Assembly: GCA_905234265.1 (NCBI GenBank)
Contig: CAJOHJ010000009.1
Span: 94,061 to 158,060, forward strand
DNA: 64,000 nt
Reading direction: 5' to 3'
Origin: an uncultured Prevotella sp.
GTDB taxonomy: Bacteria; Bacteroidota; Bacteroidia; Bacteroidales; Bacteroidaceae
Shown: in pieces, positions 17,720 to 64,000 of the stretch
Position numbering within the stretch: position 1 is the stretch's first letter
Layout: the number at the start of each line of letters is the position of its first letter
Made by a program: the position numbers and the translations under genes
The notes under the pieces: model-generated
The model's database searches: none
Seen by the model: the letters and a program-made list of their open reading frames with translations, nothing else
What the model was told of the DNA's origin: nothing

Positions 17720-18930
17720 ATGAAAAAATCTTTACTTTTCAAGACACTGCTCGTTCTGGCAGCCTTAGCAATCGGCACAAAGGTGCAGGCACAAAATGCG
17801 TATTACGTACTCAGCGACGACGGCAAGACCCTTACATTCTACTATGACCTTCAAGGGGAAAGCCGGGGGGGGTATTTTTAAATGGCGGTACCGAACTCCC
17901 TAAAAGTATTATTTCTGCCGTCTTTGATGCATCATTTGCGAACTATCGTCCAAAAGGTAGCATATCGTTTAGCGGTTGTTCTTCTCTCACCACTATCACA
18001 GGTATAGAAAATCTCAAGACCGACAACGTGACGGGAATGAGCTTTATGTTCTATAACTGCTCCAGCCTGACAAGCCTTGACTTAAGCAGCTTCAACACAA
18101 GCAACGTGACGGACATGAGCTATATGTTCAATGGCTGCTCCAGCCTGACAAGCCTTGACTTAAGCAGCTTCAACACAAGCAACGTGACGAACATGAGCTT
18201 GATGTTCTATAACTGCTCCAGCCTGACAAGCATTGACATGAGCAGCTTCAATACAAGCAACGTGACGAACATGAGCTTGATGTTCTATAAGTGCTCTGAG
18301 CTGACAAGCCTTGACTTAAGCAGCTTCAACACAAACAACGTGACGGACATGAGCTATATGTTCAATGGCTGCTCCAGTCTGACGAGCCTTGACTTAAGCA
18401 GCTTCAACACAAGCAACGTGACGGGAATGAGCTTTATGTTCTGTGGCTGCTCCAGCCTGACAAGCCTTGACTTAAGCAGCTTCAATACAAGCAACGTGAC
18501 GGACATGAGATCTATGTTCTGGGGCTGCTCCAGCCTGACAAGCCTTGACTTAAGCAGCTTCAACACAAACAACGTGACGGACATGAAATCTATGTTCGAT
18601 GGCTGCTCCAGCCTGAAAACGATATATGCAGGTGATGGTTGGAGTACTGAGAAGGTGACGTCGAGCGGCTATATGTTCTGGGGCTGCAACAATCTTGTTG
18701 GCGGACAGGGAACTACATATTGGCATCTCGACTACTACCTCGCCTACGCCCGCATCGATGGCGGCCCTGACGCTCCTGGCTTCTTCACGTACAAAGCAGC
18801 CAGCGGCATCGCCAGCATCACAACAGACGGCATCAAGGCTGCTCCCGTCTTCAACCTGCGCGGCCAGCGGATTGCTGCTCCGCAGAAGGGCATCAACATC
18901 GTTGGCGGACGGAAGATTGTAGTGAAGTAA
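17720..18930 (+). pseudogene. BspA-like (DUF285) surface protein, out of frame at a G8 tract
   Basis: 17720 signal peptide MKKSLLFKTLLVLAALAIGTKVQAQNAYYVLSDDGKTLTFYYDLQGESRGG then stop TAA 17879-17881; one extra G gives an open frame into 18028-18930 with 26-aa repeats (MSYMFNGCSSLTSLDLSSFNTSNVTD) and tail KGINIVGGRKIVVK. Confidence 0.85.
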
Positions 18931-20195: not shown

Positions 20196-23035
20196 GCGAA
20201 AATATAGAAATCAGAGGTGCCAGAGTAAACAATCTGAAGAACATCAGCGTCACCATTCCGCGCGACAAGCTGATAGTAGTCACCGGTGTCAGCGGCAGCG
20301 GCAAGTCGTCGTTAGCCTTCGACACGCTCTATGCCGAAGGACAGCGCCGCTACGTGGAGAGTCTGTCGAGCTATGCACGCCAGTTCCTCGGGCGCATCAG
20401 CAAGCCTGAGTGTGACTTCATTCAAGGCATTCCCCCGGCTATTGCCATCGAGCAGAAAGTCATTTCGCGCAATCCGCGGTCTACCGTCGGCACGACGACG
20501 GAAATCTACGAATATCTGCGCCTGCTGTATGCGCGCATCGGCCACACCTATTCTCCCGTCAGCGGTCAGGAGGTAAAGAAGCACACTGCTGAAGACATCA
20601 TCCGCTGCGTGCATACGTTTCAGAGCGGCACGCGCTTCATGGTGGCCGCTCCTATAAAGCTCCGCGAGGGCCGCACGATGGAGAAACAGCTGACCATGTA
20701 CAACCAGAACGGCTACAACAGGATATTCGTCGGCGGTGATGTTGTGCGCATCGAGGATTTCCTGGCGTCGCCCAACACCCAACACCCAACAGCCAACACC
20801 CAACAGCCCATCTACCTCATCATCGACCGCCTGTCGGTCGACGATGGCAGCGACAGCATCTCGCGCCTCATCGACTCCACAGAGACAGCCTTCTACGAGG
20901 GTAACGGCGAGTGCAGGCTGATATTCCCTCCGTCGAACATCTGCTACGACTTCTCCACGCGCTTTGAGGCCGACGGCATCAGCTTCGAAGAACCCTCCGA
21001 CCAGATGTTCTCATTCAACTCCCCTGCCGGCGCATGCCCTGAATGCCAGGGCTTTGGCAACATCATCGGCATCGACGAGCATCTTGTAATTCCCAACACT
21101 TCGCTGTCGGTCTACGACGGCTGTGTGGTCTGCTGGCACGGCGAGAAGATGAGCTGGTGGAAGGACGAGTTCTGCCGCCGTGCCGCCAAGGACGACTTCC
21201 CTATTTTCGAACCCTACTATAATCTCACACAGACGCAGAAGGACTGGCTGTGGCACGGTCTGCCGTCGGACACCGGCTTCGACTTCATAGACAAGATCAG
21301 CATCGACTCCTTCTTCCAGATGGTCAAGGACAACCAGTACAAGATACAATACCGCGTGATGCTGAGCCGCTACCGTGGCAAGACCACATGCCCGAAATGT
21401 CACGGCACACGCCTCCGCGAAAACGCCAACTACGTGAAAATCAACGGCCGCAGCATTACCGACCTCGTGCAGATGCCCATCAGCAATTTGCATCAGTGGT
21501 TTGCCACCATCGAGCTAAGCGACAGCGAAAAGGCCGTTGCCAGGCGACTGATGGCAGAAATCACGTCGCGCCTCAGCTTCCTGAACGACGTAGGACTGGG
21601 CTACCTGACGCTGAACCGCATGTCGAACACCCTGTCGGGCGGCGAGAGCCAGCGCATCAACCTCACCACGTCGCTGGGGTCGTCGCTCGTCGGCAGCCTC
21701 TACATCCTCGACGAGCCAAGCATCGGACTCCATCCGCGCGACACCGAGCGGCTGATAAAAGTTCTCAAGGAACTGCGCGACGTGGGCAACACCGTTCTCG
21801 TGGTGGAACACGACGAGAACATCATGCGCGCCGCCGACTATCTTATTGACGTAGGCCCCGACGCCGGACTGCTGGGCGGCGAAATAGTCTTCGAGGGCGT
21901 CCTGCCCAACACCCAACAGCTCACCCAGCTCAGCAGCCAGCACCCACGCAGCTACACCCTGCGCTACCTCTCCGGACAGGAGCAGATAGCCATTCCCGCA
22001 AGCCGCCGCCCCTGGAACCAGAGCATCGAGGTGAAGGGCGCACGCATGAACAACCTGAAAGGCATCGACGTGGCCTTCCCACTGAATGTCATGACCGTAG
22101 TCACAGGCGTCAGCGGCAGCGGCAAGTCGTCGCTGGTGAAGGGCATCCTCTACCCTGCCCTTAAGCGAATGATGGGCGACCCCTGCGACGCCCCTGGCGA
22201 ATACAGCGGACTGGCCGGCGACGTCAGCGCCATCAAGCGCATAGAGTTCGTCGACCAGAACCCAATCGGCAAGTCGACACGCTCCAACCCAGCCACCTAC
22301 GTCAAGGCCTACGATGCCATCAGAGACTTGTTCGCCGAGCAGGCGCTGGCCAAGCAGATGGGCTTCACGTCACAGTATTTCTCATTCAACACCGACGGAG
22401 GCCGCTGCGACGAGTGCCACGGAGCCGGCGTAATAACCGTCGAGATGCAGTTCATGGCCGACCTGGTGCTTACCTGCGAGGCCTGCCACGGCCAGCGCTT
22501 CAAGCAGGACGTGCTTGACGTGCGCTTCGAGGGCAAGAACATCGACGACGTGCTGAACATGACCATCGACGAGGCCATCCAGTTCTTCACCAGCACCACA
22601 AGTCCATCACCCAACACCCTGTGCAACACCATCGTCAGCCGCCTTAGGACACTGCAGCAAGTGGGACTGGGATACATCAAGCTGGGACAGAACTCCAGCA
22701 CCCTCTCCGGCGGCGAGAACCAGCGCGTAAAGCTGGCCTACTTCATCGGACAGGAGCGGCAGGAGCCTACCATGTTCATCTTCGACGAGCCGTCGACAGG
22801 CCTTCACATGCACGACATCAAGCGGCTGCTGGAAGCCTTCAATGCACTGATAGAGCGCGGCCACACCGTCATCGTCATCGAGCATAACACCGACATCATC
22901 AAGTGTGCCGACCACGTCATCGACCTTGGCCCCGACGGCGGCAACAAGGGCGGCCATCTCGTAGCCACAGGCACGCCAGAGGACATAGCCCGCTGTCAGG
23001 AAAGCCACACCGGCCGCTTCCTGGCCGCCACCTGA
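20192..23035 (+). CDS. uvrA: Excinuclease ABC subunit A
   Basis: [88 protein letters not shown]. Confidence 0.98.
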
Positions 23036-23059
23036 CACAGCCATTCCGCAAGCAAAAAA

Positions 23060-23162
23060 ATTATCTCTGCGAGTTACAAGATTATCTCTGCATGTTACGA
23101 AATTATCTTACGGAGATAATTTTTTATCTTACGGAGATAATTTTTTATCTCTGCATGTTATT
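23060..23162. repeat. Tandem/inverted copies of the dispersed 21-bp TTATCTCTGCATGTTACGA family
   Basis: AATTATCTCTGCGAGTTACAAG ATTATCTCTGCATGTTACGA AATTATCTTACGGAGAT AATTTTTTATCTTACGGAGAT AATTTTTTATCTCTGCATGTTA. Confidence 0.9.
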
Positions 23163-34403: not shown

Positions 34404-35981
34404 ATAGGCTGCACACATCTCGGCGCATCGTTCTCCGTCGACACCGGCAGAAACTATACCACCAGCATAGCCGGCACCTTCGCCGCATGGGAAAAGGCCT
34501 GCAATCTGGACATGCATCAGAGTGTCGGCATTGCGGACAATGCGTACAGGACTACTGGTGCGTGTCTCTACACCTATCATTACTGCCTCATTCGTCAGAA
34601 AGCCATGGCTCTGGCGACCAAAGGCCTTGAAGCCTTCCTGCAAGCGATGGCTAATGCCATCGGGCAGCCAAAAATGCAGCGGCGAAGATATAAGTCCCGG
34701 CGCGTATGACGAACGGGGCAAATCATAGCTCAGCCGCCTGTTGACGAAGTCGGCCATGCGCTGGGCAGGAGCCGTCTGCTTCATGTTTCCCTGCTGCCAG
34801 CAGTCACGCTCGAGCCGTTCCTGGAAGTGCATGACGCGCAGAGGGTCGTCACCCTCAATATCCTCAGCACGCATTTCCACTACCATGCCGCTGTTCGACC
34901 ACTGGCCGCCACGATTAGAAGGTGACATCCCATTGACTACAATTTGTTGCTTGCCTGTGGCTGCAGGAATGACAAAGCCGCCAGGACACATGCAGAAGGA
35001 ATAGACGCCACGGCCATCGACCTGCGTGACAAAGGAATATTCAGCAGCAGGCAGGTACTTGCCCCTACCCTGCTTGTTATGGTACTGTATCTGGTCAATG
35101 AGTGCAGAAGGATGCTCCAGACGCACACCAAAGGCAATACCTTTAGCTTCTATCGCGATGCTGCTGTCGAAAAGGTATTGATAAACATCACGGGCACTAT
35201 GGCCTGTAGCAAGAATGACAGGACCGAAGAATTGGTGTTGGGTGTTGGGTGTTGGGTGTTGGGTGATGGCCTCAACGCCGACAACCTTAGGGCTTCCATA
35301 ACCGCCATCACCTTCTATAAGCAGACGGGTCATCTTTGTCTGGAAGTGTACCTCGCCGCCACAGCGCAGGATGGTGTTGCGCATGTTCTCGATAACTCGC
35401 GGCAGCTTGTCAGTGCCAATATGAGGATGAGCATCGGCCAATATGTTAGCAGATGCTCCATGCTGGCAGAACACGTTTAAGATTTTATCTATCGAGCCGC
35501 GCTTCTTTGAACGAGTATACAGCTTGCCGTCGCTATAGGCACCAGCCCCACCCTCGCCGAAGCAATAGTTGCTCTCGCCGTCTATCTGCTGCGTCTTCGT
35601 AATCTGCGACAAGTCCTTCTTACGCTCATGCACATCCTTGCCACGCTCAAGCACTATAGGCCGAAGGCCAAGTTCTATAAGACGAAGGGCTGCAAAAAGG
35701 CCGCCAGGGCCTGCACCGACTACTATCACCTGTGGCCTGCTGCTGACATCGGGATATTCGGTATGAACATATTCGTCGTCCTGTGGCTGTTCGTTGATGT
35801 ACACACGCACTTTCAGATTGACGTATATGTTACGCTGACGTGCATCAATGCTACGGCGCAGAATGCGCAAGCCCGTAATCGTACGCACGTCAAAGCCATA
35901 CTCATCGGCCAGCCAGTTGCGCAGCAAAGGCTCGTTGGCTGCGACCGCAGGTGTCACACGTATCTGATACTCGCTAATCAT
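34386..35981 (-). CDS. FAD-dependent dehydrogenase (NAD(P)/FAD oxidoreductase)
   Basis: VIVVGAGPGGLFAALRLIELGLRPIVLERGKDV; GEGAGYAGGIVSAGVDG. Confidence 0.9.
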   Translation of the reverse strand: MISEYQIRVTPAVAANEPLLRNWLADEYGFDVRTITGLRILRRSIDARQRNIYVNLKVRVYINEQPQDDEYVHTEYPDVSSRPQVIVVGAGPGGLFAALRLIELGLRPIVLERGKDVHERKKDLSQITKTQQIDGESNYCFGEGGAGAYSDGKLYTRSKKRGSIDKILNVFCQHGASANILADAHPHIGTDKLPRVIENMRNTILRCGGEVHFQTKMTRLLIEGDGGYGSPKVVGVEAITQHPTPNTQHQFFGPVILATGHSARDVYQYLFDSSIAIEAKGIAFGVRLEHPSALIDQIQYHNKQGRGKYLPAAEYSFVTQVDGRGVYSFCMCPGGFVIPAATGKQQIVVNGMSPSNRGGQWSNSGMVVEMRAEDIEGDDPLRVMHFQERLERDCWQQGNMKQTAPAQRMADFVNRRLSYDLPRSSYAPGLISSPLHFWLPDGISHRLQEGFKAFGRQSHGFLTNEAVMIGVETRTSSPVRIVRNADTLMHVQIAGLFPCGEGAGYAGGIVSAGVDGERCAEMCAAYLQQTV

Positions 35982-44485: not shown

Positions 44486-44512
44486 TTTCGTAACATGCAG
44501 AGATAATTTTGC
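44480..44512. repeat. Single copy of the dispersed 21-bp family overlapping the recN stop codon
   Basis: AGATAATTTCGTAACATGCAGAGATAATTTTGC; recN stop TAA at 44483-44485 lies inside. Confidence 0.8.
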
Positions 44513-46958: not shown

Positions 46959-46996
46959 GTCTGCCACCCACCACCCACCACCCATCACCCATCACC

Positions 46997-48399: not shown

Positions 48400-48462
48400 C
48401 GTATCTTACGGAGTTTCGAAATTATCTGCGTAAGATAATTTCGTAACATGCAGAGATAATTG
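48400..48462. repeat. Copies of the dispersed 21-bp family (inverted arrangement)
   Basis: GTATCTTACGGAGTTTCGAAATTATCTGCGTAAGATAATTTCGTAACATGCAGAGATAATTG. Confidence 0.85.
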
Positions 48463-49275
48463 TCAGACGTCTACTCCATAGCCGAAAAGGGCAAAGTCGC
48501 CTTTCAAGGGGTCGTCGGGAAATACAGTGGCAAGCGACTGTGTGAGCTGACGGGCGGCAGACATGGAGGCCGTCTTGCAATGCATCAGGCCAAGGCGCAC
48601 CGATTCGCTGACGACATGGGTGTCGAGGGGCATGATGAGCGTACGGCGGTCGATGAAGCCGGCCCACAGGCCAAGGTCGACGGGTGAGCCGCTGCGCACC
48701 ATCCACCGCAGAAACATTGCCACTCGCTTGCAGGCTGACTGTGTGTCCTTGGGGACAACAACGGAGACGCCATGCGCCGAGAAGTAGCTGCAAATGGAAG
48801 CTATGGCGGAAAGGCCTGTTGGGTGATGGGTGTTGGGTGATGGGTGCTGGGGTATGGGTGTTGGGTGATGGGTGATGGGTGTTGGAGAAAACTGGCGCAC
48901 ATAGTTGCCCAGCGTTCCGTAGTCGGCAAGCAGCTGGCGATAGGCGGCAAGGAAGCCGTTCATGGTGGAATGAGTGTAGAGACGATAGAAGCAGCTGCTG
49001 TCTGACGCCCGGAACATGCGCTCATAGTCGGCGGAAAGCACCCACTGGTGGACTTCGCCACGGGAATTGTCGAGTATCTGCTGTATCTTGGGCAGAAACT
49101 GCTTGCGGCTGCCATAGCTAAGCACTGAGGCAACGAAGGCCATTGCTTCCTGGTTGGCAGCTCCGCTGACCTGATGCATAAACCACGAAGGGTCGCCGTC
49201 GAGGAATGCTGCCGTCTCGTAACGCTCGGCATATTCACGAAGCTGACGGGCAACGTCGGCACTTATTTCCACCAT
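48463..49275 (-). CDS. TIGR02757 family protein with in-frame heptamer insertion
   Basis: DPSWFMHQVSGAANQEAMAFVASVLSYGSRKQFLPKI; SACKRVAMFLRWMVRSGSPVDLGLW; insert [25 protein letters not shown]. Confidence 0.9.
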   Translation of the reverse strand: MVEISADVARQLREYAERYETAAFLDGDPSWFMHQVSGAANQEAMAFVASVLSYGSRKQFLPKIQQILDNSRGEVHQWVLSADYERMFRASDSSCFYRLYTHSTMNGFLAAYRQLLADYGTLGNYVRQFSPTPITHHPTPIPQHPSPNTHHPTGLSAIASICSYFSAHGVSVVVPKDTQSACKRVAMFLRWMVRSGSPVDLGLWAGFIDRRTLIMPLDTHVVSESVRLGLMHCKTASMSAARQLTQSLATVFPDDPLKGDFALFGYGVDV

Positions 49276-54967: not shown

Positions 54968-55954
54968 TCAATAGGCTTCACGGTATTTGTTCTCGTCTTT
55001 GTCGCCAAGCATCGACAGATACGACTGGTAGCGGCTCTGGGCTATGTAATGCTGCTCGACGGCATCGCGGACGGCACAGCCGGGTTCATGGGTGTGCGTG
55101 CAGTTGGAGAAGCGGCACTGCTTGGAGAACTCAAAGATTTCCTTGAAATAGCTGGTCACTTCCTCCGGTTCCATGTCGAAGGTGCCAAAGCCCTTGATGC
55201 CCGGTGTGTCGATAAGGTAGCCGGGTGTTGGGTGATGGGTGGTGGGTGATGGGGGGTGGGTGATGGGGGGCAGAGGTATCATTTCCGAAAAGGTCGTGGT
55301 GTGCATGCCCGTATTGTGTGCATCGCTGATGTCGGCCGTGCGCAGCTGTGTTCCAGGTACGAGGGTGTTGATGAGCGTCGACTTCCCCACCCCGGAGTTT
55401 CCGCTCAGCAGGGTTATCTTGCCTTGCAGCATCTGGCGCAGCGGCTCGATGCCCATGCCGGTGACGGCGGAGATGGCCATGCACTGATAGCCCACGGTCT
55501 CGTAGAGGTCGATCATCATCTGCTGATAGCGCTGCTCGTCGGCATTGAGCAGGTCGGTCTTGTTGAACACCAGCACCACCGGCACCCTATAGGCTTCTGC
55601 CGAGGCCAGGAAGCGGTCGATGAATGTAGTGCTGGTCTCCGGACGCACAACGGTGACTACCAGCAGGGCCAGGTCGACATTGGCTGCCAGAATGTGGCTC
55701 TGCTTGGAGAGGTTGATGCTCTTGCGGATAATGTAGTTGCGGCGGTCTTCTATTTCGGTGATGAAGGGGGTTGGGTGTTGGGTGTTGGGTGATGGGTGTT
55801 GGGTGATGGTGACCCTGTCGCCAACTGCCACGGGATTAGTGGTCCGTATGCCACGCAGCCGGAAATTACCTTTTATCTTACAGTCAACAGTCAGTCCATC
55901 GTCCGTAAGGACGGTGTACCAACTGCCTGTATTCTTTATCACAAGCCCTTTCAC
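54968..55954 (-). CDS. rsgA: Ribosome small-subunit-dependent GTPase A with two in-frame heptamer insertions
   Basis: [33 protein letters not shown] zinc site; inserts [13 protein letters not shown] and [16 protein letters not shown]. Confidence 0.95.
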
Positions 55955-56674: not shown

Positions 56675-57934
56675 ATGATTAGCGACCCTTCACTGCGCGA
56701 CAGGCGCATTGCCCTGCTGCTCTCCGGCGGCGTAGACTCGTCGGTGGCACTCTACGAACTCGTGCGGCGCGGACTCAAGCCCGACTGCTTCTACATAAAG
56801 ATTGGCCCGGAGGACAATCTGTCTGCCGACGGCGGCAACGGAGACGGACAGACATGGGACTGTTCGGCAGAGGAAGACCTGGAAATGGCTACCGCCGTAA
56901 GCCGCAAGTACGGATGCAGCCTGGAAATCGTTGACTGCCACCGCGACTACTGGGACCAGGTGACGCGCTACACCATGGAGAAGGTGCGCAACGGCTTCAC
57001 GCCAAATCCCGACGTCATGTGCAACCGGCTGATAAAATTCGGAGCCTTCCACGAAAAGCGCGGCCACGAATATGACCTTATTGCCACAGGCCACTATGCA
57101 CAGACGGAACCTGCCGGCATTTCTGAGGGCAGCGGAACTCTGGACGCTGAACAGGGAAGCAGCACATCGCCCAACAGCCAGCTACAATGGCTTTGCACCA
57201 GCCCCGACCCGGTGAAAGACCAGACCGACTTCCTGGCTCAAATCTACGGATGGCAGCTGCAGAAAGCACTCTTCCCCATCGGCCACATGCTCAAGGATGA
57301 AGTGCGCCGCATTGCCGACAGCGAGAGGCTGGCGCCTGCACACCGCCGAGACTCGCAGGGCATCTGCTTCCTGGGGAAAATCGACTACAACGAATACCTG
57401 CGACGCTATCTGGGACAGCAGCAGGGCGACGTCGTTGAACTGGAGACTGGCCGGCTCATCGGGCATCACCAGGGACACTGGTTCCACACCATAGGACAGC
57501 GAAAGGGCCTCGGACTGGGCGGAGGCCCGTGGTTTGTAGTCAAGAAAGACATCCAGCAGAACATAATCTACGTATCGCATGGCTACGACCCGCAGACGGC
57601 CTACCGACAGGAGTTTGTCATTGCCGACTTCAACAGCCTCATACCCACGGCAGGCTATTCCGTACCCACGGCAGGCAATTCCGTTCCCGCGGCAGGCAGC
57701 AATAACGGCAGCGGCCAATCGGCCTCTGCCGCCGACAGACTGCTGCGGGGCAACGTAACCATAAAAATCCGCCACACGCCCGAATTTACTGCCGCCACCA
57801 TCGAGCCACTTCCCGACGGCCGCTACATCATCCGTGCCGCAGAGCCTATCCACGGCGTGGCTCCGGGACAGTTCTGCGTAGTCTACGACAGCAACCACCA
57901 CCGATGCTACGGCAGCGGCGAAATCACCATCTGA
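56675..57934 (+). CDS. mnmA: tRNA-specific 2-thiouridylase with in-frame 21-bp repeats
   Basis: ALLLSGGVDSSVALYEL; GFTPNPDVMCNRLIKFGAF; RDSQGICFLGKIDYNEYL; repeat PTAGYSV PTAGNSV PAAGSNN. Confidence 0.95.
   Translation: MISDPSLRDRRIALLLSGGVDSSVALYELVRRGLKPDCFYIKIGPEDNLSADGGNGDGQTWDCSAEEDLEMATAVSRKYGCSLEIVDCHRDYWDQVTRYTMEKVRNGFTPNPDVMCNRLIKFGAFHEKRGHEYDLIATGHYAQTEPAGISEGSGTLDAEQGSSTSPNSQLQWLCTSPDPVKDQTDFLAQIYGWQLQKALFPIGHMLKDEVRRIADSERLAPAHRRDSQGICFLGKIDYNEYLRRYLGQQQGDVVELETGRLIGHHQGHWFHTIGQRKGLGLGGGPWFVVKKDIQQNIIYVSHGYDPQTAYRQEFVIADFNSLIPTAGYSVPTAGNSVPAAGSNNGSGQSASAADRLLRGNVTIKIRHTPEFTAATIEPLPDGRYIIRAAEPIHGVAPGQFCVVYDSNHHRCYGSGEITI
57644..57706. repeat. Three in-frame 21-bp units in mnmA
   Basis: CCCACGGCAGGCTATTCCGTA / CCCACGGCAGGCAATTCCGTT / CCCGCGGCAGGCAGCAATAAC. 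Confidence 0.92.
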
Positions 57935-57935
57935 G

Positions 57936-58050
57936 AATTTGTAACTCGCAGAGATAATTTCGTAACATGCAGAGATAATTCCGTAACATGCAGAGATAAT
58001 TTCGTAACATGCAGAGATAATTTCGTAACATGCAGAGATAATTTCGTAAA
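57936..58050. repeat. Tandem array of the dispersed 21-bp family (AATTTCGTAACATGCAGAGAT), about 5 units
   Basis: Units start at 57936 (20-bp variant), 57956, 57977, 57998, 58019, plus a partial. Confidence 0.95.
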
Positions 58051-58109: not shown

Positions 58110-60002
58110 TCACTTAACCACAATCTTTTTGCCATTGATGATGACAATGCCCTTGAACGACTTGTCAACACGCTGGCCAGCAAGGTTGAAGACTGCACCG
58201 TTGGCAACAGTCTGCACAGTCTTAATGCTCTCAACGGCAGTGTCATCCTGTCCCCATGTAGGATAGTCGACAAGCATCTGGGAAGCAATCTCACCGGCAG
58301 AGAATGCCTTGTTAGAGATAATCAGCTTGGCGAAATCGAACGGAGCGTCGTTGTCATTCAATTCCCATGCCTGATTACCGCCGAGGCAGACATACTTAAG
58401 GTCGGCACCATTAGAGAAGAGGCCTTTCTGCGTGGTCGTACGGTTCTCCGGATCACCCTTGGAAGCGTCGGCCCACTCGTTCTTCAACTCACCGTCGATG
58501 TAGACCTTTGCATTCTCACCATCGAAGACGGCTGTATAGTAGTGCCACTTCTTGTCGGCCAACCAGTCGATGCCGCCGTGATAGAGGGTGTTGACACCCT
58601 TCACGTTCTGAGCGTCAGCATAGTCGCAGAAGCCAGAACAGTTAACCTGCAGCACGCCACGATACTGGAGAGCCAGCATTGGGAACGTGTTCACGCCGCC
58701 AACAGGAGCTGCACCATAGGCGGTGAGCAGCGGAGCCCACATATAGTCGGCAGACTTTGCCTGTTCCTGAGCGCGAACCCAGACACCAACGGTCAGAGCC
58801 TCAGTCTTTGCAGAGTGTGCAAAAACTTCCTCTGGCAGCAGGCAGTAGCTCGTGCGCTTGGCCGAGCCGTCGTTGTGATAATAGTTACCGAAGACAGCTC
58901 CTTCTTCGTCGGTAGAAGCGAATTGGCCGTTACCAACAATCTTCTCACCGTGCCACGTCACGCGTTCACCGCTGTCTTCATCCTCATAAGTAGAGAAATT
59001 AGTAGCATAGGTATAGTCTGCTTCAATGCCGTTAATCAGTTCCTCAGCACTGCCGCCCTCATAAAATTCATAGCCACCGAAACCAATCTGAGTAGAACCC
59101 TGGAACACAAGATATTCATCGCCAGCTTCAACGTCGAATGTCAGCCAACCAAAAAATGGCTGATTGTTACGACCTACGAAATACTGATATCCGGCATCTA
59201 CGTTTACAGAATCAATATATTCCTGTTCACTAAGCAGCGAACCCTTCTCGACAGCAGCAGCATAGCCTTCAAGAATCCATGCATTGTGAACAGAGTCTAC
59301 CTGTTCAACCGACAAGAACTTAAGCTGACCGTTCTCTGTCTGCCCATTAATATAGCCAGAAGCATACAAACGCTGAGCTTTAGCATCCTTAGCATTTACA
59401 ACATAAGTCTGTCCGCTGCCATTCTTATTAATCCACACTTTCACCTTGAATGCACCGGCAACAGTAGAGGTAAACTTATAATAAAGACCTGTAACAGGAA
59501 GGCCCAATGAACCGTCAGGAGCATAATTCTGAGTTGCGACCTTATAATTTCCAGTACCAACGCCATCCGTTACTATTTCTTCGGCGAGCATAGAGACATA
59601 AGGATTACCTGTACCTGTCACCCAATTAAAATTTATATCGCCACGGTTTCCTTTACCCCACGTGATGTCGTTCCAAGCACCTACCGAGGCCAATTCATAA
59701 AGATGCTTATCAGCGTCAACTACAGCACCCGGAGTAATCTGCTGTGCACCGCCACCTACATTGGTATCATTTGCAGGTGTAGTTCCACCCACAGCCGTCA
59801 CAGTCGCCTTACCAGTAGTAACAGTAACGATAGACTTGCCGTCTTTCACATTGTTTGCCACGCCGCCAGCTGCACCGGCCACGGCAGCAAACTCTGGAGC
59901 CAGACTGCCGTCGACGATGGCCTCATAGCTCTCAGTCTGTGCGCTGACACTCGCTGCGCAAAGCACAGCAGAAATAAGCGTAAAAATTTTCTTCATAGAC
60001 AT
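58110..60002 (-). CDS. Secreted protein with LamG-like region and 'KGIVIINGKKIVVK' tail
   Basis: Signal MKKIFTLISAVLCAASVSAQ; KKWHYYTAVFDGENAKVYIDGELKNEW LamG-like; C-terminal tail. Confidence 0.8.
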   Translation of the reverse strand: MSMKKIFTLISAVLCAASVSAQTESYEAIVDGSLAPEFAAVAGAAGGVANNVKDGKSIVTVTTGKATVTAVGGTTPANDTNVGGGAQQITPGAVVDADKHLYELASVGAWNDITWGKGNRGDINFNWVTGTGNPYVSMLAEEIVTDGVGTGNYKVATQNYAPDGSLGLPVTGLYYKFTSTVAGAFKVKVWINKNGSGQTYVVNAKDAKAQRLYASGYINGQTENGQLKFLSVEQVDSVHNAWILEGYAAAVEKGSLLSEQEYIDSVNVDAGYQYFVGRNNQPFFGWLTFDVEAGDEYLVFQGSTQIGFGGYEFYEGGSAEELINGIEADYTYATNFSTYEDEDSGERVTWHGEKIVGNGQFASTDEEGAVFGNYYHNDGSAKRTSYCLLPEEVFAHSAKTEALTVGVWVRAQEQAKSADYMWAPLLTAYGAAPVGGVNTFPMLALQYRGVLQVNCSGFCDYADAQNVKGVNTLYHGGIDWLADKKWHYYTAVFDGENAKVYIDGELKNEWADASKGDPENRTTTQKGLFSNGADLKYVCLGGNQAWELNDNDAPFDFAKLIISNKAFSAGEIASQMLVDYPTWGQDDTAVESIKTVQTVANGAVFNLAGQRVDKSFKGIVIINGKKIVVK

Positions 60003-60346: not shown

Positions 60347-60955
60347 TTACTTAATCACGACCTTTTTGCCGTTCTTGATGACGATGCCCTTGAAGCCGGC
60401 AGCAACCTTCTGGCCTGCGATGTTGAAGGCAGGAGCGTCCTGAGCAACAGCGCTTACAGTGCTGATGCCGTCGGCGCCACCGCGAGTGATGACAATCTTG
60501 GTAATGAACACGTTAGTGCTGGCCTTGGAACGGGCGAGACGTATCGTCTTGCTGCCAGCCTGGTCTGTAATTGTGTAGTTATTGGTGTTTGGCTCCTGGC
60601 CTACGTTCTCATGGATGTTGTTCCAGACGACATTGTCACCTTCGTCGATAGCAGTACCAACGCCGAAATCAATGTACAAGGTTCCATTGGCATCAGTGTC
60701 CTTTTTGCGATAGCCGGTGATGGCAATCACGTCGTCAGCAGCCAAAGCCTCGTCGAGCGAAATCGTAACATTGTCGGTGTCAATATTGGCCTTTTTTGCA
60801 CTCACGGTAATAAGAGTTTCTGAAACGGCTGTGTTACCACCATTAGCTTCAACTGTGCCACCAGTAGCCACACCGGCTTCCCAAGAGAAGATTGTCTGTG
60901 CGTTAACACCTGCTGCCAAGAATGCAGCTGCAATAAGAGTAAAAACTTTTTTCAT
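60347..60955 (-). CDS. Secreted protein, paralog of 61312-61995, 'KGIVIKNGKKVVIK' tail
   Basis: MKKVFTLIAAAFLAAGVNAQT signal; C-terminus DGISTVSAVAQDAPAFNIAGQKVAAGFKGIVIKNGKKVVIK. Confidence 0.8.
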   Translation of the reverse strand: MKKVFTLIAAAFLAAGVNAQTIFSWEAGVATGGTVEANGGNTAVSETLITVSAKKANIDTDNVTISLDEALAADDVIAITGYRKKDTDANGTLYIDFGVGTAIDEGDNVVWNNIHENVGQEPNTNNYTITDQAGSKTIRLARSKASTNVFITKIVITRGGADGISTVSAVAQDAPAFNIAGQKVAAGFKGIVIKNGKKVVIK

Positions 60956-61016
60956 ACGCTTTTTGTTTGTTTTTAAAGTTAATAATGTAGTGAATAAAAT
61001 ATAATAATGTGTTTTC

Positions 61017-61240
61017 CTATTTAACATAACTGCGGTTATGTCGCATAACTGGCAGTTGTCTTATGCATATAAATCTATGCAAAGGTATATCTTGCACGCC
61101 GTTTGGGCAAATTTTCATGTGCTTTATTCTCTTTTTTTAACATTAAAAACGTCAAACTTCATTTTTATGCAACTAAAAGTCACGAAACACTGGGCTTTCC
61201 TGTGGCAGTTATGCGACATAACCGCAGTTATGTTAAATAG
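61017..61240. repeat. Perfect 35-bp inverted repeat flanking a 154-bp segment (candidate invertible promoter)
   Basis: CTATTTAACATAACTGCGGTTATGTCGCATAACTG (61017-61051) and its exact reverse complement (61206-61240). Confidence 0.97.
61080..61111 (-). promoter_or_regulatory. Bacteroidetes-type promoter inside the invertible segment, directed toward 60347-60955
   Basis: Minus strand: -33 TTTG (61111-61108), 20-bp spacer, -7 TACCTTTG (61087-61080). Confidence 0.7.
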
Positions 61241-61311
61241 AACTTGAAAGACACAACTTACCCAAACTAATTTATTTACACATTATTATTAATTAAAACA
61301 CAAAAAAGCGT

Positions 61312-61995
61312 ATGAAAAAAGTTTTTACTCTCATTGCCATGGCAGTAGCTGCCATGAGTGTTAACGCACAGACAGTTGTATTCTCCGCAACTCCTGCCAG
61401 CACACTCGAAGCAAACTGGTCTGTTCCTGCCGGTTCTGCCGATCTTGAGATTACTAGTGCTGAAGCTACTATTGTTGGTGGCAAGATGTATGCCTTCAGC
61501 CAGCAGGCTGATGCTAAAGACTTAATCAAGAAACAGGGTGGCGAATATGCCTTCCAGTTCACAAACAACAACACATACTTTAAGATTGTTCTTGACCAGG
61601 CTCTTAAGGCTGGTGACATTATCAGCGCACGCATGCAGTCAAGAACAGACACAGACTTAGGCATATTCTTTAATACTGGCGCACGTCCTTCAGAGACAAC
61701 CACTGCAATACTCTTCCCGACTGCCAGTGAGCAGAGTTGGGCAGCAGCACCAACATACACTGTTGCTGAAGGTGACGGAATCTGTGGTGAAACTGCTATA
61801 TTCCTTTATCGTGCCACTGGTAAGAGTACTTTCTTCAACGAATTTGTTATCACTCGCACAGGCGGTACCGACGGCATCAGCACTGTAAGCGCTGTTGCTG
61901 AGGACGCTCCTGCCTTCAACCTCGCTGGCCAGAAGGTTGGTGCCGGCTTCAAGGGCATTGCCATCAAGGGCGGCAAGAAAATCATTGTAAAGTAA
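61312..61995 (+). CDS. Secreted protein, paralog of 60347-60955, 'KGIAIKGGKKIIVK' tail
   Basis: MKKVFTLIAMAVAAMSVNAQT signal; TDGISTVSAVAEDAPAFNLAGQKVGAGFKGIAIKGGKKIIVK. Confidence 0.8.
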   Translation: MKKVFTLIAMAVAAMSVNAQTVVFSATPASTLEANWSVPAGSADLEITSAEATIVGGKMYAFSQQADAKDLIKKQGGEYAFQFTNNNTYFKIVLDQALKAGDIISARMQSRTDTDLGIFFNTGARPSETTTAILFPTASEQSWAAAPTYTVAEGDGICGETAIFLYRATGKSTFFNEFVITRTGGTDGISTVSAVAEDAPAFNLAGQKVGAGFKGIAIKGGKKIIVK

Positions 61996-63937: not shown

Positions 63938-64000
63938 GGCACTACACTTGAATATGCAAAGTTTAATACACGACAAAGCTAAGCACTATCGAGAAAGAGC

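Follow-up and report, generated by a model that had tools for sequence, protein, structure and literature searches.

Inverted dif-like sites around a promoter between divergent secreted-protein paralogues: a candidate XerCD-driven either/or switch in Bacteroidota

In the Mpi, Tsr0667 and Tsr19 systems of B. fragilis, as well as in gut invertons, short inverted repeats surround a TTTG/TAnnTTTG promoter at genes for surface or secreted proteins (PMC4747536; PMC11892184), and the locus analyzed here has a similar layout. At the mba locus of Ureaplasma parvum, the Xer-family recombinase UU222 (XerC-type) inverts DNA at short inverted repeats, by which two opposed genes are alternated (PMC3599477). 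The pdif (pXerC-D) modules of Acinetobacter plasmids also carry 28-bp Xer sites that share one core and face in opposite directions, and their reversible inversion was detected by PCR (PMC9947245). Furthermore, Xer-integrating microviruses and filamentous phages use dif-like sites in the same bacterial order without a recombinase of their own (PMC3091885). For the locus described below, the chances appear about even that a Bacteroidota chromosome flips a promoter between two secreted-protein paralogues via XerC/XerD, which could tie phase variation to segregation and division.

The window, i.e. the whole 64,000-nt stretch of DNA that was analyzed (G000:C9:94061-158060), forms the right end of its contig, which stops at window position 64000. 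A candidate cassette of 224 bp, arms included, is located between two divergent genes encoding secreted-protein paralogues (Table 1). An earlier note on this DNA had described a perfect 35-bp inverted repeat with a 154-bp spacer between divergent paralogues, and within each arm the palindrome ACATAAC-TGCG-GTTATGT. Both were recovered: the arms are exact reverse complements and each contains the palindrome with its 7-4-7 core. When one mismatch was tolerated, the inverted repeat grew to 38 bp at 97%, and in the 396 kb of the genome that were scanned the 35-bp repeat was the longest perfect inverted repeat with a spacing below 1.5 kb. With 35-bp arms 154 bp apart, a short segment is enclosed by inverted repeats in the manner of an inverton.

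The flanking genes had been called paralogous as well, and a sequence identity of 39% over the full length (E=8e-32) bears this out. Much of the similarity resides in the signal peptide and the C-terminal domain. At the DNA level, the gene starts are 97% identical across 35 nt at the start codon and 75% over the next 28 nt, and the last 135 nt are 87% identical. The C-terminal domain, read by eye, is common to both paralogues and a neighboring 630-aa protein (58110-60002); from its appearance, it presumably resembles that of type IX secretion cargo. No Pfam family was obtained above cut-off for either paralogue, and searches of protein families, PADLOC and PDB sequences yielded no usable function for either of them. 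The AlphaFold model (mean pLDDT 45) was not considered further.

Table 1. Coordinates of the features discussed in the text, given as window positions unless a contig is named.
Feature	Position	Strand	Basis or remark
Perfect 35-bp inverted repeat, left arm	61017..61051	.	repeat search
Perfect 35-bp inverted repeat, right arm	61206..61240	.	repeat search
154-bp segment proposed to invert	61052..61205	.	between the arms
Left gene, 202-aa secreted protein	60347..60955	-	ORF; signal peptide and C-terminal domain recognized by eye
Right gene, 227-aa paralogue of the left gene	61312..61995	+	ORF, sequence comparison
Leader and start of the left gene, homologous to their counterparts at the right gene	60930..60988	-	DNA comparison
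Leader and start of the right gene, homologous to their counterparts at the left gene	61280..61337	+	DNA comparison
Sole exact Bacteroidetes-type promoter between the genes, TTTG-N20-TACCTTTG	61080..61111	-	motif search; aims at the left gene
Left dif-like 28-bp Xer site, ATGCGACATAA CCGCAG TTATGTTAAAT	61019..61046	-	XerD half outward, XerC half inward
Right dif-like 28-bp Xer site, sequence and core identical to the left	61211..61238	+	XerC half inward, XerD half outward
21-bp repeat TTATCTCTGCATGTTACGAAA	10143-10223, 23057-23162, 44489-44506, 48442-48459, 57936-58049; also G000:C7:87367, C27:4176		
Heptamer repeats	490-514, 20769-20807, 35234-35272, 46964-46996, 48815-48885, 55223-55270, 55762-55812		

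Apart from the arms, further repeats are present in the window. The 21-bp intergenic repeat, which occurs singly and in tandem, gave 12 matches in the window (0.02 expected), and the heptamers GGGTGTT / GGGTGAT are scattered over the window, with 30 matches to an 18-mer (0.07 expected). Two of the heptamer arrays lie within an rsgA-like CDS (54968-55954), where they are read as Thr/His/Pro-rich insertions. An in-frame 21-bp tandem repeat was found in an mnmA-like gene (56675-57934) at 57642-57698, a stretch that is unmatched by the MnmA of relatives, and a 78-bp unit repeated 7.6 times at 18024-18616 looks coding and recalls leucine-rich repeats of the BspA type.

The region between the two genes was then considered with respect to its promoters. 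According to the earlier note, one exact promoter points left from the minus strand, an exact TAnnTTTG is absent from the plus strand between 61052 and 61311, and inversion of the segment would place the -7 box at about 61170-61177 facing the right gene. The single promoter was found exactly as described, and the same plus-strand stretch held no TAnnTTTG even at one mismatch. Among 20,000 dinucleotide shuffles of the 154-bp segment, either strand counted, 228 (1.1%) yielded such a promoter. When the segment was inverted in silico, the promoter came to lie at 61146-61177 on the plus strand with the -7 box at the predicted position (61170-61177), while both arms were unaltered. The flip thereby re-aims an internal promoter at a gene, and a lone promoter placed between the two sites can aim at just one gene per orientation. 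Assuming a transcription start about 7 bp beyond the -7 box, the leader would be approximately 120-130 nt long for either gene, and its first part would be identical in both orientations. The predicted RNA fold of the leader showed nothing noteworthy (z = -1.3). Leaving aside the question of the recombinase, we regard an invertible promoter at this locus as very probable.

Each arm contains a 28-bp Xer-type site (ATGCGACATAA, CCGCAG, TTATGTTAAAT) in the XerC/XerD layout, that is, with ATAA, a 6-bp core, TTAT and an XerD half like that of the host. Both sites have the core CCGCAG and lie in opposite orientation; they thus share their core as partner Xer sites do. The perfect identity of the arms ends no more than 2 bp outside the XerD half, so the outer limit of the arms is that of the recombination site. 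To place these sites among those of the genus, a dif motif was used that had first been hinted at by a search for dif-like sites and was then tested separately from the arms. As of 2011, dimer resolution was unstudied in any Bacteroidetes (PMC3091885). The genus consensus ATAA-TC(A/G)GCA-TTATGATAAAT, in which the XerD half TTATGATAAAT is near-invariant and the core variable, was matched in 84 of 120 genus genomes with few control matches. Among the matches listed, several genomes with two large contigs had one dif site per contig, as would be expected of dif if these contigs are two chromosomes. A usable dif consensus for the genus is now at hand. The probable chromosomal dif of the present genome was found on contig C7 (201024-201051), near a turn of the GC skew from positive to slightly negative, a weak sign since the contig ends 15 kb further. 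Using mnmA as a marker gene in relatives did not place the locus relative to dif, as this distance was not conserved.

The XerD half of the arms equals that of the genome's own dif at 10 of 11 positions and is the XerD half of E. coli dif (PMC2731167). When the whole 2.69-Mb genome was searched for the dif-derived pattern ATAAN6TTATGATAAAT at no more than one mismatch, three matches were obtained, namely dif and the two arms. In a scan of 396 kb with a profile built from the dif sites of 71 other genomes (which score 20.6-34.3 bits), the arms ranked second and third: the own dif scored 31.1 bits, each arm 24.8 bits and the next site 20.0 bits. Judged by these sequence matches, the arms are Xer-type sites. 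That they represent the chromosomal dif itself was considered and rejected, as they form an inverted pair, their core is not that of dif, and the genome has its own dif on C7.

Subsequently, the recombinases available to the cell were surveyed. XerC- and XerD-type recombinases are both encoded, each being the best-scoring protein with a full-length match to its model, slightly under the curated cut-offs. The genome (93.8% complete) gave no match to the serine recombinase family PF00239, to which an Mpi-type enzyme would belong, and no intact invertase of the local Tsr type was found beside the locus up to the contig end. A broken tyrosine integrase with interrupted frames, whose C-terminal part matches PF00589, is located at the contig end (63480-63910), about 2.2-2.7 kb to the right of the 154-bp segment. 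Apart from this remnant, tyrosine recombinases are encoded on contigs C1, C4 and C27, the one on C27 (4.4 kb) being additional to XerC and XerD. The earlier note had advised looking for a trans-acting recombinase elsewhere in the genome; XerC and XerD were indeed found there, while the likeness of the arms to dif had escaped it. Because the arms match an Xer/dif site, it is probably XerC/XerD that would act here in trans, rather than a dedicated invertase of the Mpi or Tsr type.

A dedicated tyrosine recombinase encoded elsewhere might nevertheless flip the promoter in a Tsr-like manner, the dif-likeness of the arms then being convergence on a palindromic tyrosine-recombinase site. The C27 integrase could be such an enzyme, or, at 93.8% completeness, one that is absent from the assembly, and in B. 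fragilis one tyrosine invertase does control distant sites (PMC4747536). However, both halves of the arms match dif, the arms are unique in the genome, C27 carries no similar repeat and no intact invertase adjoins the locus, which makes this alternative unlikely.

We slightly favor an either/or promoter inverton between the divergent paralogues that is flipped by the housekeeping XerCD at its dif-like ends, which would be an uncommon driver for a switch of this kind. XerC and XerD, the recombinases of chromosome dimer resolution, would bind both inverted sites and bring them together as a pair, and strand exchange within the identical CCGCAG cores would then invert the segment. Inverted Xer sites with identical cores provide the geometry from which XerCD recombination would give inversion. 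In the assembled orientation, the promoter would drive the left gene while the right gene is silent, and in the flipped orientation the right gene would be driven and the left one silent. A two-way A/B switch had been put forward in the earlier note; the architecture fits it, and each sequence-level prediction that was checked came out as expected. From the sequence, we infer the inversion, its execution by XerCD and its control of expression; the rate of flipping and its dependence on FtsK are likewise matters of inference.

Several observations were counted against the involvement of XerCD. At the chromosomal dif, XerCD normally needs FtsK. The core of the arms, CCGCAG, differs from the genus dif core TCRGCA. 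In addition, intramolecular recombination between Xer sites of A. baumannii plasmids was inefficient in one study, in which the ATAA-core-TTAT motif was said to determine where binding and cleavage occur, and in which Xer sites with the core T/CCGCCA recombined without FtsK (PMC11705084). The arm core has CCGC in common with this FtsK-independent core, which is suggestive only.

Alternatively, the arms could be paired operators of a regulator that were copied together with gene and upstream region in an inverted duplication, without any inversion of the segment. Each arm has the 7-4-7 palindrome in a symmetrical position, and the starts and ends of the genes are duplicated in inverted orientation, as such a duplication would leave them. 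Against this, the arms are 100% identical, whereas outward of them the leaders show no relationship over some 28-39 bp and reach just 75% similarity after that; the arms are thus better conserved than the duplicated DNA that flanks them. Moreover, the locus has a single promoter and it faces left, no regulator gene was recognised adjoining it, and the palindrome ACATAACTGCGGTTATGT has no copy outside the two arms in the whole genome, even at 3 mismatches. As an operator would leave the match to dif across both halves unexplained, this origin of the arms appears improbable.

To find related loci, 399 genus genomes (including the present one, the only member of its species in the set) were searched at the DNA level with the segment, and no other homologous locus was obtained. 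The exact arm sequence had no match in GTDB and IMG/VR. The two-site pattern at similar spacing gave eight matches in these collections, mostly direct repeats of the filamentous-phage type adjoining dif and none an inverted pair with identical cores; further viral scans were empty. Within the genus, close inspection was directed at genomes with dif-like matches on both strands. Among the matches listed, forward and reverse matches were mostly one per contig or replicon, and no second inverted pair with identical cores was present in the sampled genomes, which makes the present locus a lone case to date and counts against the XerCD reading. Three genomes (G109, G144 and G132) have inverted dif-like pairs with unlike cores, 66 bp apart and near contig ends (L129:7347-7433, L130:2239-2325 and L131:4226-4312), which look like attachment regions of Xer-using integrating elements. 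It is very unlikely that the present arms are such an old attachment region, left without a role by a Xer-integrating filamentous phage or microvirus: Prevotella/Bacteroides microviruses do use dif-like sites, some of their proviruses having a second one (PMC3091885), and the three genomes supply inverted pairs, but those pairs are imperfect with differing cores, whereas the present arms are identical over 35 bp including the cores, the segment carries a promoter in place of phage genes and is located exactly between the paralogues, and no phage genes, be it for replication or capsid, were recognised among the ORFs from 55 to 64 kb, although the contig ends there.

Switches between two genes and inversions by Xer recombinases are both already known elsewhere, in Ureaplasma and on Acinetobacter plasmids, while in the open-access literature searched no dif-type promoter inverton was found for Bacteroidota. 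To our knowledge, many invertons still lack an assigned enzyme. Should XerCD drive some of them, phase variation could do without a specialised recombinase, might be linked to FtsK and the division cycle, and would become searchable as inverted pairs of dif-like sites. The candidate XerCD-driven switch differs from each of its closest relatives. Bacteroidales invertible promoters turn an operon on or off, whereas here the promoter is aimed at one member of a divergent pair of paralogues; where their enzyme is known, it is a dedicated serine or tyrosine invertase, whereas here the arms are dif-like and neither a serine recombinase nor an intact local invertase was found. In the mba system of the mollicute Ureaplasma, a single Xer-family enzyme acts on repeats that are not dif, while the present arms are dif-like and both XerC and XerD are proposed to act on them. 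The sites of Xer-integrating phages mediate integration and flank phage genes, and the inverted pairs found in the genus have non-identical cores. The Acinetobacter pdif modules are plasmid-borne, comprise whole genes and belong to a gammaproteobacterium, whereas the identical-core sites described here enclose a 154-bp promoter segment on a chromosome.
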